From: Caldilineales bacterium
GTDB lineage: Bacteria; Chloroflexota; Anaerolineae; Caldilineales; Caldilineaceae
Reading direction: 5' to 3'
NCBI GenBank assembly: GCA_012271135.1
Contig: JAAXGZ010000152.1
Span: 18,940-82,939, forward strand
Length of the DNA stretch: 64,000 nt
The position numbers and the translations under genes are program-made. Below, piece by piece: positions 7,191 through 12,013 of this stretch (within the stretch, counting starts at the first letter, position 1; every line of letters starts with the position of its first letter). Below the pieces are notes generated by a model. The model worked only from the letters and a program-made list of their open reading frames with translations, searched no databases and was not told the origin of the DNA.

Positions 7191-7865
7191 ATGAGTCTCT
7201 CTCGCAGCCTGCTGCGCCTGGCGGGTTTCGCGGGCGGAGCCCTGCTGGGCCTGCGCCTGCACTGGTTCCGACAGCCGCGGCCCTGGCCGCGGCAGCTGGC
7301 GTCCTGGCTGGACAGCGATCTGCGCCGCCGTTGGCTGGATCCGGTTTCCCTGCTGGACCCGATCGGGGTCCAGCCCGGCATGCATGTGCTGGAGGTAGGG
7401 TGCGGCACCGGGGTCGTGACCGAGGAGTTGGCGCGCCGCGTAGGCGAGCAGGGTACCGTGACCGCGCTCGACATCCAGATGGCACTGATTCAGCGTGCCC
7501 GGACGCGCCTTCGGGAGGCCGAGCTGGCGGATCGGGTGCGGTTTCTGTTCGCCGATACGGACGGCGCTCCGCTTGACCCACAGTCCGCGGACCTGATCGT
7601 GCTGGGTTCCGTGCTGGGGGAGATTCCCGATCCCCATCCCATGCTGACGACCCTGTTCGGCGTGGCCAAACCCGGGAGTCGACTTGCCATCTACGAGGAA
7701 CCACTCATGCCGGGCGCGCTGCCCCCTGCCATGGCCCAGATGCACCTGCATGCCGCGGGATTTCGGCGCGGCGGGCACATCCGGCAGCTGACCCACTGGC
7801 TGGGCGTGTACTACCGCGACGGGGATGAGTGGGACCCGAACCTGAAACCGGGGACCATCCTGTGA
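7191..7865 (+). CDS. class I SAM-dependent methyltransferase
   Basis: VLEVGCGTGVVTEELARR; N-terminal hydrophobic helix. Confidence 0.85.
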   Translation: MSLSRSLLRLAGFAGGALLGLRLHWFRQPRPWPRQLASWLDSDLRRRWLDPVSLLDPIGVQPGMHVLEVGCGTGVVTEELARRVGEQGTVTALDIQMALIQRARTRLREAELADRVRFLFADTDGAPLDPQSADLIVLGSVLGEIPDPHPMLTTLFGVAKPGSRLAIYEEPLMPGALPPAMAQMHLHAAGFRRGGHIRQLTHWLGVYYRDGDEWDPNLKPGTIL

Positions 7866-8977
7866 GTGATGAAGTCCGGCCGCGGCGCCTGGAGGAAAGT
7901 GTCGAGTCCCTGACCGGGGCCGATCTGCCCTTTCGCACCCCGGACCTGCCCGGCATCGGCGGCCGCATTCGGGTCCGGCCGGAGGATTTCCGGGTGACGG
8001 AGATCCCGGCCTACGAACCGGCCGGCCGCGGCCCCCACCTGTACGTGTCGGTGACCCGGACCGGCCACACCACGCCGGAGGTGGCGGACCTCTTGGCGCA
8101 GGCGCTCAATGCGGACAAAGGTGCAGTAGGCTATGCCGGCCTCAAGGACAAGCGGGCCTGCACCACGCAGACGTTCAGTGTGCTGGCGTCCAACGGGTTT
8201 GTCCCGGACGAAGAGTGGGTGGCCCGCCGCCTGGCCGCCGAGACCCCCTTGCAGGTCAATTGGATGCGGTGCCACGGCAACAAGCTGCGGACCGGGCATC
8301 TGCGCGGCAACCACTTCGACATCCTGGTTCGGTATCCCGACGCACCACCGGAGGAGGCGGTCGCCCGTGCGCAGGCCATCGCGGACGCCCTGAAGCGGGA
8401 CGGCCTGCCCAACTGGTTTGGTCCCCAGCGCTTCGGCCATGAGGGTCAAAATGTGATCAAGGGCTGGCGCATCGTGCACCGCGGTTGGCGCGCACACCGG
8501 CGCTGGCTACACAAACTCCTGCTGTCCGCCTACCAGTCCTGGCTGTGCAACCGCTACCTGTCCTTGCGCATGCACGAAGGCCTGCTGGATTGCTGTCTGG
8601 TCGGCGATGTGGCCCGCAAGCATGAAACGGGCGGCATGTTCCTGGTGGAGGATGCGGAAGCGGACTCCCGGCGGCAGGTTGCCGGCGAGATTTCCTTCAC
8701 GGCCCCGATGTACGGCCACAAGATGTGGGCGGCCGAAGGCGTTGCCGGCGAACTGGAGGAACGGATCCTGACCGAACAGGAGCTGGTCGGCTTCAATTGG
8801 CGACGGGGTAAAGTAACAGGTACCCGACGCACCGGCCGGCTGGTGCCCTCGGACCTGTCGGTGCGGAGGGAGGCGGACGGCATTCGGCTGTCCTTCTCGC
8901 TGCCGAAGGGCGGCTACGCAACGGCTGTGCTGCGGGAAGTCATGAAGATGGGCAATCCGGACTTGGCTGAGGATTAA
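7862..8977 (+). CDS. truD: tRNA pseudouridine(13) synthase TruD
   Basis: GYAGLKDKRACTTQ, NWFGPQRFG; GTG start overlapping the methyltransferase stop. Confidence 0.93.
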   Translation: MSDEVRPRRLEESVESLTGADLPFRTPDLPGIGGRIRVRPEDFRVTEIPAYEPAGRGPHLYVSVTRTGHTTPEVADLLAQALNADKGAVGYAGLKDKRACTTQTFSVLASNGFVPDEEWVARRLAAETPLQVNWMRCHGNKLRTGHLRGNHFDILVRYPDAPPEEAVARAQAIADALKRDGLPNWFGPQRFGHEGQNVIKGWRIVHRGWRAHRRWLHKLLLSAYQSWLCNRYLSLRMHEGLLDCCLVGDVARKHETGGMFLVEDAEADSRRQVAGEISFTAPMYGHKMWAAEGVAGELEERILTEQELVGFNWRRGKVTGTRRTGRLVPSDLSVRREADGIRLSFSLPKGGYATAVLREVMKMGNPDLAED

Positions 8978-8986
8978 GCGAGCGTC

Positions 8987-9652
8987 ATGCAAATTCCGCT
9001 CTTTCCGCTCAACACGGTGCTGTTTCCCGGTATGGTGCTGCCGTTGCAGATCTTCGAGCCCCGGTACCTGAAGATGGTGGCCCGTTGCCTGTCGGACGAA
9101 GGCTGCTTCGGCGTGGTGCTCATCCGCGAGGGCGGTGAGGTCGGACCAACGGCCGAGCCGTACGGGGTGGGCACGCTGGCCCGGATCCAGTCCGTGGACA
9201 AGGAACCCGGTGGAACCCTGAACATTGTGGCGGTGGGCGTCCGGCGGTTCCAGATCAACGAGATGCTGGAAGATCAGCCCTGGCCAAGCGCCGACATCAC
9301 GGAGTGGCCGATCGACCCGGGCGAGCCATCCACCGTGGAACGGCTGAGCGACCGGGTCCGGGAGTTGTTCGGGGAGTACCGGACCAATCTCAGCGAGGCG
9401 ACCAACCTGAAGCTGAAGATCAACAGCATCCCGGACGAGCCCGAGGCGTTGGCCTCGCTGGTGGCCATCGCGATGCAAATCGAGCTGCGGGACAAGCAGA
9501 AGGTGATCGAGGCCGAGACCCTCCCCGCCATGCTGGAGGCCGAGGTGGGGCTGCTGGCCCGCGAAAAGATGATTCTGGAGTATGTCAGGGACTCCCAGGA
9601 CCGCCAGAAGCATCTGCGTCTGGGTCCCACCGGTCAGATGTTCCTGAACTGA
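8987..9652 (+). CDS. LON peptidase substrate-binding (Lon N-terminal) domain protein
   Basis: IPLFPLNTVLFPGMVLPLQIFEPRYLKM. Confidence 0.92.
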   Translation: MQIPLFPLNTVLFPGMVLPLQIFEPRYLKMVARCLSDEGCFGVVLIREGGEVGPTAEPYGVGTLARIQSVDKEPGGTLNIVAVGVRRFQINEMLEDQPWPSADITEWPIDPGEPSTVERLSDRVRELFGEYRTNLSEATNLKLKINSIPDEPEALASLVAIAMQIELRDKQKVIEAETLPAMLEAEVGLLAREKMILEYVRDSQDRQKHLRLGPTGQMFLN

Positions 9653-9678: not shown

Positions 9679-9753
<75 letters not shown>

Positions 9754-9879
9754 TTTTCCGACCCGGGACTCCGACGGTGGATTGCGCCGCGTTGGTGTCC
9801 GGTTCCCTTCCCCGCCTTCTTGCCTGTTACAATCCCGGCCCAGTTCAGGGTCGGCCTTGGGGTTTGGCCCTCAAAGCGT

Positions 9880-10120
9880 GGATCGGGCCATGTCCGGCAG
9901 ATCCCGACCGGATGCAGAGAGTTCCCGCCCCGGCTGCAAGCGGGAGTCCGGATCGCCGCCGGATACCACCCGGGAGCGGGACGGGACATCCGGCGCGGCC
10001 GGATTCAACCGTCCCCGGCAGGCTCCGTTACCGGCCGCATGAGCGGCGCCCGTGGGGCGCAAGCCAGGTGGAACCGCGAGCAGTGCATCGTCCCGGCGAC
10101 AACGCACTGCCGTTTTGATT
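9880..10120 (+). ncRNA. T-box leader upstream of thrS (boundaries approximate)
   Basis: AGAGAG motif 9916-9921, apical GGCTGCAAG at 9932-9940, candidate Thr specifier ACC(A) at 9965-9967, T-box AGGTGGAACCGCG at 10066-10078, then terminator hairpin GCAGTGC...GCACTGC-CGTTTTGATT. Confidence 0.85.
10080..10117 (+). terminator. conditional terminator of the thrS T-box leader
   Basis: GCAGTGC (10080-10086)/GCACTGC (10104-10110) followed by CGTTTTG. Confidence 0.75.
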
Positions 10121-10171
10121 CTGCGGATCGTCGGCCGACGGTCCCGAATGTGGATCAGGAGTTTAATCGCG

Positions 10172-12013
10172 GTGAGCAAGCAGCAAGGCACACAGGAAGA
10201 CAGGCTATACCGGATTCGGCACAGCGCGGCCCACGTCATGGCCCAGGCTGTGCGCGAACTGTATCCGGATGCCCGGCTGGCCATCGGACCACCGATTCAG
10301 GACGGCTTCTATTACGACTTCGACCTGGGCATGGAAAAGGGCCGGCCTCGCACCTTCCTGCCGGAGGATTTGGAGGAGATTGAACGGCGCATACGCCGCA
10401 TTATTGGTGGCCAGCATCCGTTTGTATACCGGGAGGTTAACGCCGACGAGGCCCGTGTCCTGTTTGCCGACGAACCCTACAAGCTGGAACTGATCGAGGG
10501 CTTGGTCGAGGGCACGGTGGACGAGTACGGCGAGGAAACCGAAGGCAGCCAAGTCATCTCGACCTACACCCAGGACACTTTCGAGGATCTGTGCCGCGGC
10601 CCCCACGTGGAGCACACGGGCCAAATTCCGATTGAAGGCGTCAAGCTGATGAGCGTGGCCGGCGCTTATTGGCGCGGCGACGAGCACAGGCCCATGCTGC
10701 AGCGGATCTACGGTACCGCCTGGGCGAACGGCAAGCAGTTGAAGCGGCACCTCAAAATGCTGGAGGAGGCCCGCCAGCGGGATCACCGCAAGCTGGGCCG
10801 CGAGCTGTCGCTGTTTGTCTTCGACGAGGAGGTGGGACCCGGCCTGCCCCTATGGCTGCCCAATGGCGAGGTCATCATCAATGAACTGGAACAACTGGCC
10901 CGCGAGATGGAGACGGCGGCTGGCTACCGCCATGTCCGAACCCCCCACCTGACCAAGGAAAGCCTGTTCCAGCGCAGCGGCCATCTGCCGTATTACGCGG
11001 ATTCCATGTATCCGCCCATGGAGATGGAGGGGGTGCGGTACTACATTAAGCCGATGAACTGCCCCATGCACCACAAGATCTACGGCAGCGAGCCCCGCAG
11101 CTACCGGGATTTGCCGTTGCGTCTGGCCGAATACGGCACCTGCTACCGGTACGAGAAGAGCGGTGAGCTGATGGGGCTCATGCGCGTGCGGTCGATGCAG
11201 ATGAACGATGCCCACATCTACTGTTCGGAGGAACAGTTCGCGGCCGAGTTCATGGGCGTGATCGATCTTTATCTGCACTACTTCCGACTGTTCGGCATCG
11301 AGCAGTACCAGATGCGGCTGAGTACCCACCATCCCAAGGGCCTGGGCAAGAAGTACGTGGACAATGCGCGACTGTGGGCGCGCACCGAGGACCTGGTCCG
11401 GCGCACCATGCAGGAGGGGGAGGTGCCGTACGTCGAGGTGGCGGACGAGGCCGCCTTCTACGGACCCAAAATCGACGTGCAGGTTTGGAGTGCCATCGGC
11501 CGCGAGTTCACGCTGGCGACCAACCAGGTCGACTTTGCCGTCCCGACCCGCTTCGATCTGGTGTTTGTCAACTCGGACGGCGTGGAGGAGACACCGCTTT
11601 GCATTCACCGGGCCCCGCTCAGCACGCACGAGCGCATGATTGGGTTCCTGACCGAGCACTACGGCGGCAACTTCCCCCTGTGGCTGGCCCCCGAGCAGGT
11701 ACGCATCGTTCCCATCACCGACGACCATGTGGTGTCCGCCGAAGCCTTTCAGGCGGCCTGCGAGGCCCGCGGCCTGCGGGCGGGAGTCGATGCCTCGTCC
11801 GCGCGCATGAACGCCAAGATCCGTCAGGCGCAGCTTCTGCGCATTCCGGTGATGGCGGTGATTGGGGACCGGGAGGTTGCTGACGATACCGTGTCCCTGC
11901 GGCTGCGCAGCGGCCAGCGGCGGCAGGGCATGCCCCGTGCTGCCTGCCTGGCGCGCGCCACCGACCTGGTGGCCGAACGCAGTGCGGATCTGACGGAACT
12001 GCTGGCCGCGTGA
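10172..12013 (+). CDS. thrS: threonine--tRNA ligase
   Basis: HSAAHVMAQAV, GPPIQDGFYYDFD, MNCPMHHKIY, RYEKSGELMGLMRVRSM; GTG start 10 nt after AGGAG. Confidence 0.96.
   Translation: MSKQQGTQEDRLYRIRHSAAHVMAQAVRELYPDARLAIGPPIQDGFYYDFDLGMEKGRPRTFLPEDLEEIERRIRRIIGGQHPFVYREVNADEARVLFADEPYKLELIEGLVEGTVDEYGEETEGSQVISTYTQDTFEDLCRGPHVEHTGQIPIEGVKLMSVAGAYWRGDEHRPMLQRIYGTAWANGKQLKRHLKMLEEARQRDHRKLGRELSLFVFDEEVGPGLPLWLPNGEVIINELEQLAREMETAAGYRHVRTPHLTKESLFQRSGHLPYYADSMYPPMEMEGVRYYIKPMNCPMHHKIYGSEPRSYRDLPLRLAEYGTCYRYEKSGELMGLMRVRSMQMNDAHIYCSEEQFAAEFMGVIDLYLHYFRLFGIEQYQMRLSTHHPKGLGKKYVDNARLWARTEDLVRRTMQEGEVPYVEVADEAAFYGPKIDVQVWSAIGREFTLATNQVDFAVPTRFDLVFVNSDGVEETPLCIHRAPLSTHERMIGFLTEHYGGNFPLWLAPEQVRIVPITDDHVVSAEAFQAACEARGLRAGVDASSARMNAKIRQAQLLRIPVMAVIGDREVADDTVSLRLRSGQRRQGMPRAACLARATDLVAERSADLTELLAA

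Follow-up and report, generated by a model that had tools for sequence, protein, structure and literature searches.

The DNA analysed here is a stretch of 64,000 nucleotides (the window) from a Caldilineaceae MAG. On its forward strand it carries thrS, the gene for threonine--tRNA ligase, which starts with a GTG at position 10172 and codes for a protein of 613 amino acids that matches TIGR00418 at 612.7 bits (cut-off 383.65). Pfam detects the SAD, core and anticodon domains in ThrS; a TGS domain was not found by Pfam. The protein begins near the SAD (second additional) domain, and the family orthologs appear to begin likewise. Relatives of thrS are found in the Caldilineaceae and in other Anaerolineae (Chloroflexota); in a sister genome, the Caldilineaceae MAG IRC1_bin_30, ThrS is 97% identical. 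The tRNA-Val gene that the original prediction had placed just upstream is tRNA-Val(GAC) at 9679-9753. Upstream of it (7829-9652) lie a gene for a TruD-like tRNA pseudouridine synthase and then one for a stand-alone LON substrate-binding-domain protein. Among the four species of the genus compared here, tRNA-Val is kept beside the leader only in G000 and G003.

The region between tRNA-Val(GAC) and thrS had been read as a T-box riboswitch controlling thrS, with limits at 9880-10120. A cmscan with an E-value threshold matched RF00230, the Rfam T-box family, at 9870-10098 on the forward strand over the complete model (1-219 of 219; 44.3 bits, E 1.3e-8), which together with the TIGR00418 match downstream bears out that reading. 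A search of the whole genome (4.05 Mb) returned the leader as one of four RF00230 matches (E 2.5e-8). The score is about half the RF00230 gathering score of 93, and a default Rfam scan of the window lists tRNAs only; routine annotation misses this leader because it scores below the gathering threshold. With its terminator the element proper spans approximately 9870-10121 on the forward strand, so that the predicted element is there and its 5′ end had been set about 10 nt too short. The features upstream of and within the leader are as follows.

9679-9753: tRNA-Val(GAC), upstream of the T-box leader.
9825-9833, + strand: probable extended -10 element TGTTACAAT (TGn-TACAAT, with TACAAT at 9828-9833), from conservation.
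9870-10098, + strand: T-box leader RNA, full RF00230 model 1-219, from the covariance-model (CM) match and pair conservation.
9876-9977, + strand: Stem I with basal helix, specifier loop, AGAGAG internal loop and distal loop, from CM alignment and pair table.
9917-9922, + strand: AGAGAG internal loop of Stem I, from motif reading and CM alignment.
9932-9940, + strand: Stem I distal loop GGCUGCAAG (the motif GGCTGCAAG), from motif reading and CM alignment.
9965-9967, + strand: specifier codon ACC (Thr), followed by A9968, aligned to the RF00230 specifier position.
9979-9984 / 10009-10014, + strand: Stem II, from CM alignment and pair table.
10016-10030, + strand: IIA/B element with CCGTTA, from CM alignment and pair table.
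10046-10060, + strand: Stem III, whose six GC pairs do not vary among the four species.
10063-10097, + strand: antiterminator GCCAGG-[UGGAACC]-GCGA ... UCGU-CCCGGC, from CM alignment, folding and pair table.
10066-10078, + strand: T-box sequence motif AGGTGGAACCGCG, from motif reading.
10069-10072, + strand: UGGA bulge of the antiterminator, which pairs with U73-CCA of tRNA-Thr.
10080-10116, + strand: terminator hairpin GCAGUGC/GCACUGC (stem 10080-10086 / 10104-10110), then CG and UUUU (10113-10116), from invariance and minimum free energy (MFE).
10111-10120, + strand: sequence after the terminator stem, CGTTTTGATT, from motif reading.
10172-12013, + strand: thrS, threonine--tRNA ligase, 613 aa, the regulated gene (TIGR00418).

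All the sequence motifs on which the prediction was built (AGAGAG, GGCTGCAAG, ACC-A, AGGTGGAACCGCG, a terminator-type hairpin and CGTTTTGATT) are found in the claimed order, and Stem II, the IIA/B element and Stem III are all present in the CM alignment and the pair table. The ACC proposed as the Thr specifier in Stem I falls at the specifier position of the model; it is invariant in the four genus species, and the family orthologs have the same codon. The AGUA of the specifier loop (loop-E/S-turn) is gone in the genus, where AUGU stands opposite GAU (AUAU in G003). The family orthologs have AGUA/GAA, and the loss is a genus-specific departure. T-boxes typically have AGUA opposite GAA but can do without it, as the AGGU in the ileS T-box of this genome shows.

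The UGGA bulge is complementary to U73 of tRNA-Thr(GGU), as judged from the tRNAs of the sister species and the family: tRNA-Thr(GGT) genes with discriminator T occur in the three sister species (G001-G003) and in G004, G005, G009 and G031. The bulge is UGGG in G003, and pairing with U73 is kept there by a wobble. A pattern search of the window's own assembly (37 tRNAs detected, 30 loci typed) did not find tRNA-Thr(GGT), and the sole tRNA-Thr seen in this MAG carries the anticodon CGT. The same search found one tRNA-Thr(GGT) in each of the three sister genomes. The missing gene is probably a gap in the MAG, which is 94.5% complete.

Across the four species, 40 of the 47 pairs of the RF00230 model are canonical in every member. 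The element (9870-10121) differs from its sisters at 7-12 of 252 sites (approximately 3-5%), compared with approximately 15% at third codon positions of thrS, which points to strong sequence constraint on the leader. Within so close a genus, pair support means conservation, not covariation, and an invariant pair alone is no evidence. Searched against RF00230, the sister orthologs gave no match at E 1e-4 in G002 and G003 and 38.2 bits in the third species. The unconstrained MFE structure of the 251-nt leader does not contain the T-box fold, and its energy is no better than that of shuffles; nor do the folding energies of the switch region stand out clearly from those of shuffles (z about -0.9 or weaker). 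In these folding models, thermodynamics alone neither favours nor contradicts the T-box fold.

It is at the downstream end that the leader departs from the usual plan. The antiterminator GCCAGG[UGGAACC]GCGA...UCGUCCCGGC has one A·C mismatch (10066:10094), which is A·A in G003; the pair table gives A·C and G·A as mismatches. Folded in isolation, the switch region of each of the four genus species adopts the terminator hairpin as its MFE structure, and neither the seven pairs (7/7) nor the U tract varies among them. With UUUU the U tract is short. Consensus scans of the leader for promoters and terminators list neither this terminator nor a -35/-10 pair. The hairpin pairs the apical loop of the antiterminator (10080-10086) with downstream RNA (10104-10110) and leaves the antiterminator 3′ strand UCGUCCC in the terminator loop; an intrinsic terminator that competes for this strand is not what the thrS leader has. 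The CGYCC strand lies inside the terminator stem in 39/39 other thrS-proximal T-boxes of Anaerolineae, a count tallied by eye that covers the comparators whose terminator the script could fold. The terminator architecture is a departure specific to the genus. A terminator-type hairpin had thus been predicted correctly, and its non-canonical, non-overlapping form had been missed. Antiterminator and terminator would still exclude each other topologically without the usual shared strand, because the two together would form an H-type pseudoknot with no nucleotide to span a helix of 7-8 bp. Since its terminator lacks the shared strand, we class the element among the T-box leaders but call its platform class I-like rather than standard class I.

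The analysis shows to which family the leader belongs, its specifier and matching tRNA, its target gene, its conservation and its alternative helices. That it binds tRNA, that termination takes place and which way the response runs are inferred, and control of thrS is most likely exerted by tRNA-dependent antitermination. Stem I would read tRNA-Thr(GGU) through the ACC specifier. The free UCCA end of an uncharged tRNA would pair with the UGGA bulge and stabilise the antiterminator (10063-10097), and with the antiterminator held, transcription would continue into thrS. A charged tRNA would leave the antiterminator unsupported, and the hairpin 10080-10086/10104-10110 with its UUUU would halt transcription before the gene. 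Since the terminator pairs the apical loop of the antiterminator with downstream RNA, formation of both at once would require an over-tight pseudoknot, and the two states would be mutually exclusive.

Taken as a whole, the data are best explained by a class I-like Thr T-box controlling thrS (probability about 0.82). The element is a genuine Thr T-box riboswitch, a known kind of switch at a new locus; it is mostly ordinary, and its off-switch end is unusual in this genus. The weak points of the case are the score at half the gathering value, the missing AGUA, the antiterminator mismatches and the short U tract. The unexceptional MFE of the region would also suit chance motifs in GC-rich intergenic DNA, a leader peptide or a ThrS-bound operator. 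We consider these explanations very improbable, since covariance-model and comparative evidence contradict them: the match to RF00230 is full-length with an E-value of 1e-8, the orthologs score 100-118 bits, and specifier, tRNA discriminator and target gene all agree. That the leader is a decaying, non-functional T-box, which after loss of a peptidase gene now stands before thrS and is shedding its contacts, would account for the low score, the lost AGUA, the antiterminator mismatch and the restructured terminator. We regard decay as improbable, given a divergence of 3-5% against approximately 15% across the four species and the retention of specifier, UGGN, T-box motif, terminator helix and U tract; the one change in the bulge (UGGG in G003) still pairs with U73.

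A further explanation places the control, mainly or additionally, at translation. It draws on features between the terminator and the start of thrS.

10113-10160, + strand: predicted hairpin after the terminator, from folding and pair table (z-score only -0.88).
10113-10121 / 10152-10160, + strand: outer helix UUUUGAUUC / GGAUCAGGA of this hairpin, invariant, no covariation.
10125-10132 / 10137-10144, + strand: inner helix of this hairpin, covarying in the four species.
10157-10161, + strand: thrS Shine-Dalgarno sequence (SD) AGGAG, mostly covered by the outer helix.
10167-10173, + strand: UCGCGGU over the thrS GTG start, complementary to ACCGCGA of the T-box motif (10073-10079), from a complement search.

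With charged tRNA, ACCGCGA would pair with UCGCGGU, a stretch reaching over the first two bases of the GTG start, and the SD would be held in the hairpin formed with the U tract. If the tRNA is uncharged instead, ACCGCGA would be drawn into the antiterminator and the start would be freed. The complement to the start region measures 7-8 nt in all four genus members, G002 reaching 8 nt. In 26 relatives from outside the genus it never exceeds 5 nt; nearly all of these have no thrS immediately after the T-box. Among the window's 40-nt tiles, 0.65% reach at least 7 nt of complement to ACCGCGA by chance. The MFE structures of G000 and G001 contain the start-codon helix, and the inner helix covaries: pair 10129:10140 is CG, UA, UA and UG in the four species, and 10128:10141 and 10130:10139 change without losing their pairing. 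Both ACCGCGA:UCGCGGU and UUUUGAUUC:GGAUCAGGA are invariant in the four species, which are so close that they amount to little more than one event, and TCGCGGTG occurs 4 times in the window against 4.3 expected, neither rarer nor commoner. Against translational control stand also the full conservation of the terminator, stem and U tract alike, and the folding with a forced antiterminator, which gave no consistent release: SD accessibility rose only in G003 and the start codon stayed largely paired in G000. Tested in this way, a clean translational switch did not emerge consistently, and we judge it unlikely that translation is the main or an additional target of the T-box in this genus.

Class II (translational) T-boxes have been described in Actinobacteria (TBDB, PMC7778990). 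Their sequestrator would have a parallel in the pairing predicted between T-box strand and thrS start; unlike class II T-boxes, the leader has a full-length Stem I, Stem II, the IIA/B element and a U-tract terminator, and its translational control is a prediction. With class I thrS-type leaders of RF00230 it shares the AGAGAG loop, the distal GCUG-AA loop, the ACC specifier, Stem II, the IIA/B CCGUUA, Stem III, the UGGA bulge facing U73-CCA, a terminator with U tract and thrS downstream. It differs from them in the lost AGUA, the A·C mismatch, the antiterminator 3′ strand outside the terminator and the score below gathering.

The class I-like T-box has counterparts at the orthologous locus of other Caldilineaceae, where the order is tRNA, ACC T-box (100-118 bits), M20-type peptidase (approximately 1.2 kb, PF01546) and thrS. 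Position downstream of a tRNA gene, specifier and bulge are the same as in the window; the peptidase standing before thrS, the canonical terminator and the higher score are different. The upstream tRNA had been recognised in the original prediction, and that it is a conserved feature of the family locus had not. A tRNA gene lies approximately 10-90 nt upstream of the Thr T-box in L007, L019, L022, L025, L027, L031 and L033. The T-box-controlled peptidase-thrS operon suggests that cells starved of threonine respond in part by breaking down peptides. A search of a literature library for T-boxes associated with a peptidase and threonyl-tRNA synthetase gave no match. Searching the four genus species for the peptidase gave no close copy: their best matches are 24-29% identical, compared with 57-58% in G004 and G009. 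Because the peptidase is spread through the rest of the family, it was presumably lost in the genus and not gained elsewhere. The T-box of the genus therefore acts directly on thrS, with its motif approximately 100 nt upstream of the gene. One could speculate, with considerable doubt, that this former peptidase-thrS T-box, now adjoining thrS, has rebuilt its platform and that its 5′ strand has come to alternate between two partners, the antiterminator and the thrS start codon, so that control would be translational or dual. If true, this would extend such control to T-boxes outside Actinobacteria and offer a snapshot of a conversion between T-box classes. The genus-specific platform is also a small natural experiment, in which the off-state of a riboswitch was changed and the sensor kept.

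T-boxes were present in 61 of 61 genomes searched, from genus to class level, and are therefore normal in these lineages; T-boxes of Chloroflexi (ileS, trpE and trpB-like in Dehalococcoides) were reported in 2008 (PMC2494555). The window's genome has three more with matching specifiers, before trpE (specifier UGG, 97.5 bits), valS (GUC, 79.6 bits) and ileS (AUC, 63.9 bits); valS was confirmed by a profile match, and trpE and ileS were named from their translations. The ileS T-box (L003, 1501-1758, minus strand), divergent to purH, is also weak in score and has AGGU for AGUA. In GC-rich Chloroflexota, real T-boxes go undetected at the routine Rfam threshold; they are recovered when motif reading is combined with a covariance search at low threshold and with gene context.

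Upstream of the leader, TGNTACAATCC (9825-9835 in the window) is present in all four genus species. Homology of G001 and G002 to the window starts just upstream of it, and the DNA further upstream is unrelated. Because the leader is kept from there down where the upstream DNA was replaced, TGTTACAAT is probably the extended -10 element of the leader promoter. In these two sister species (L037, L038) a rearrangement breakpoint lies right at the leader promoter (window 9800-9830).
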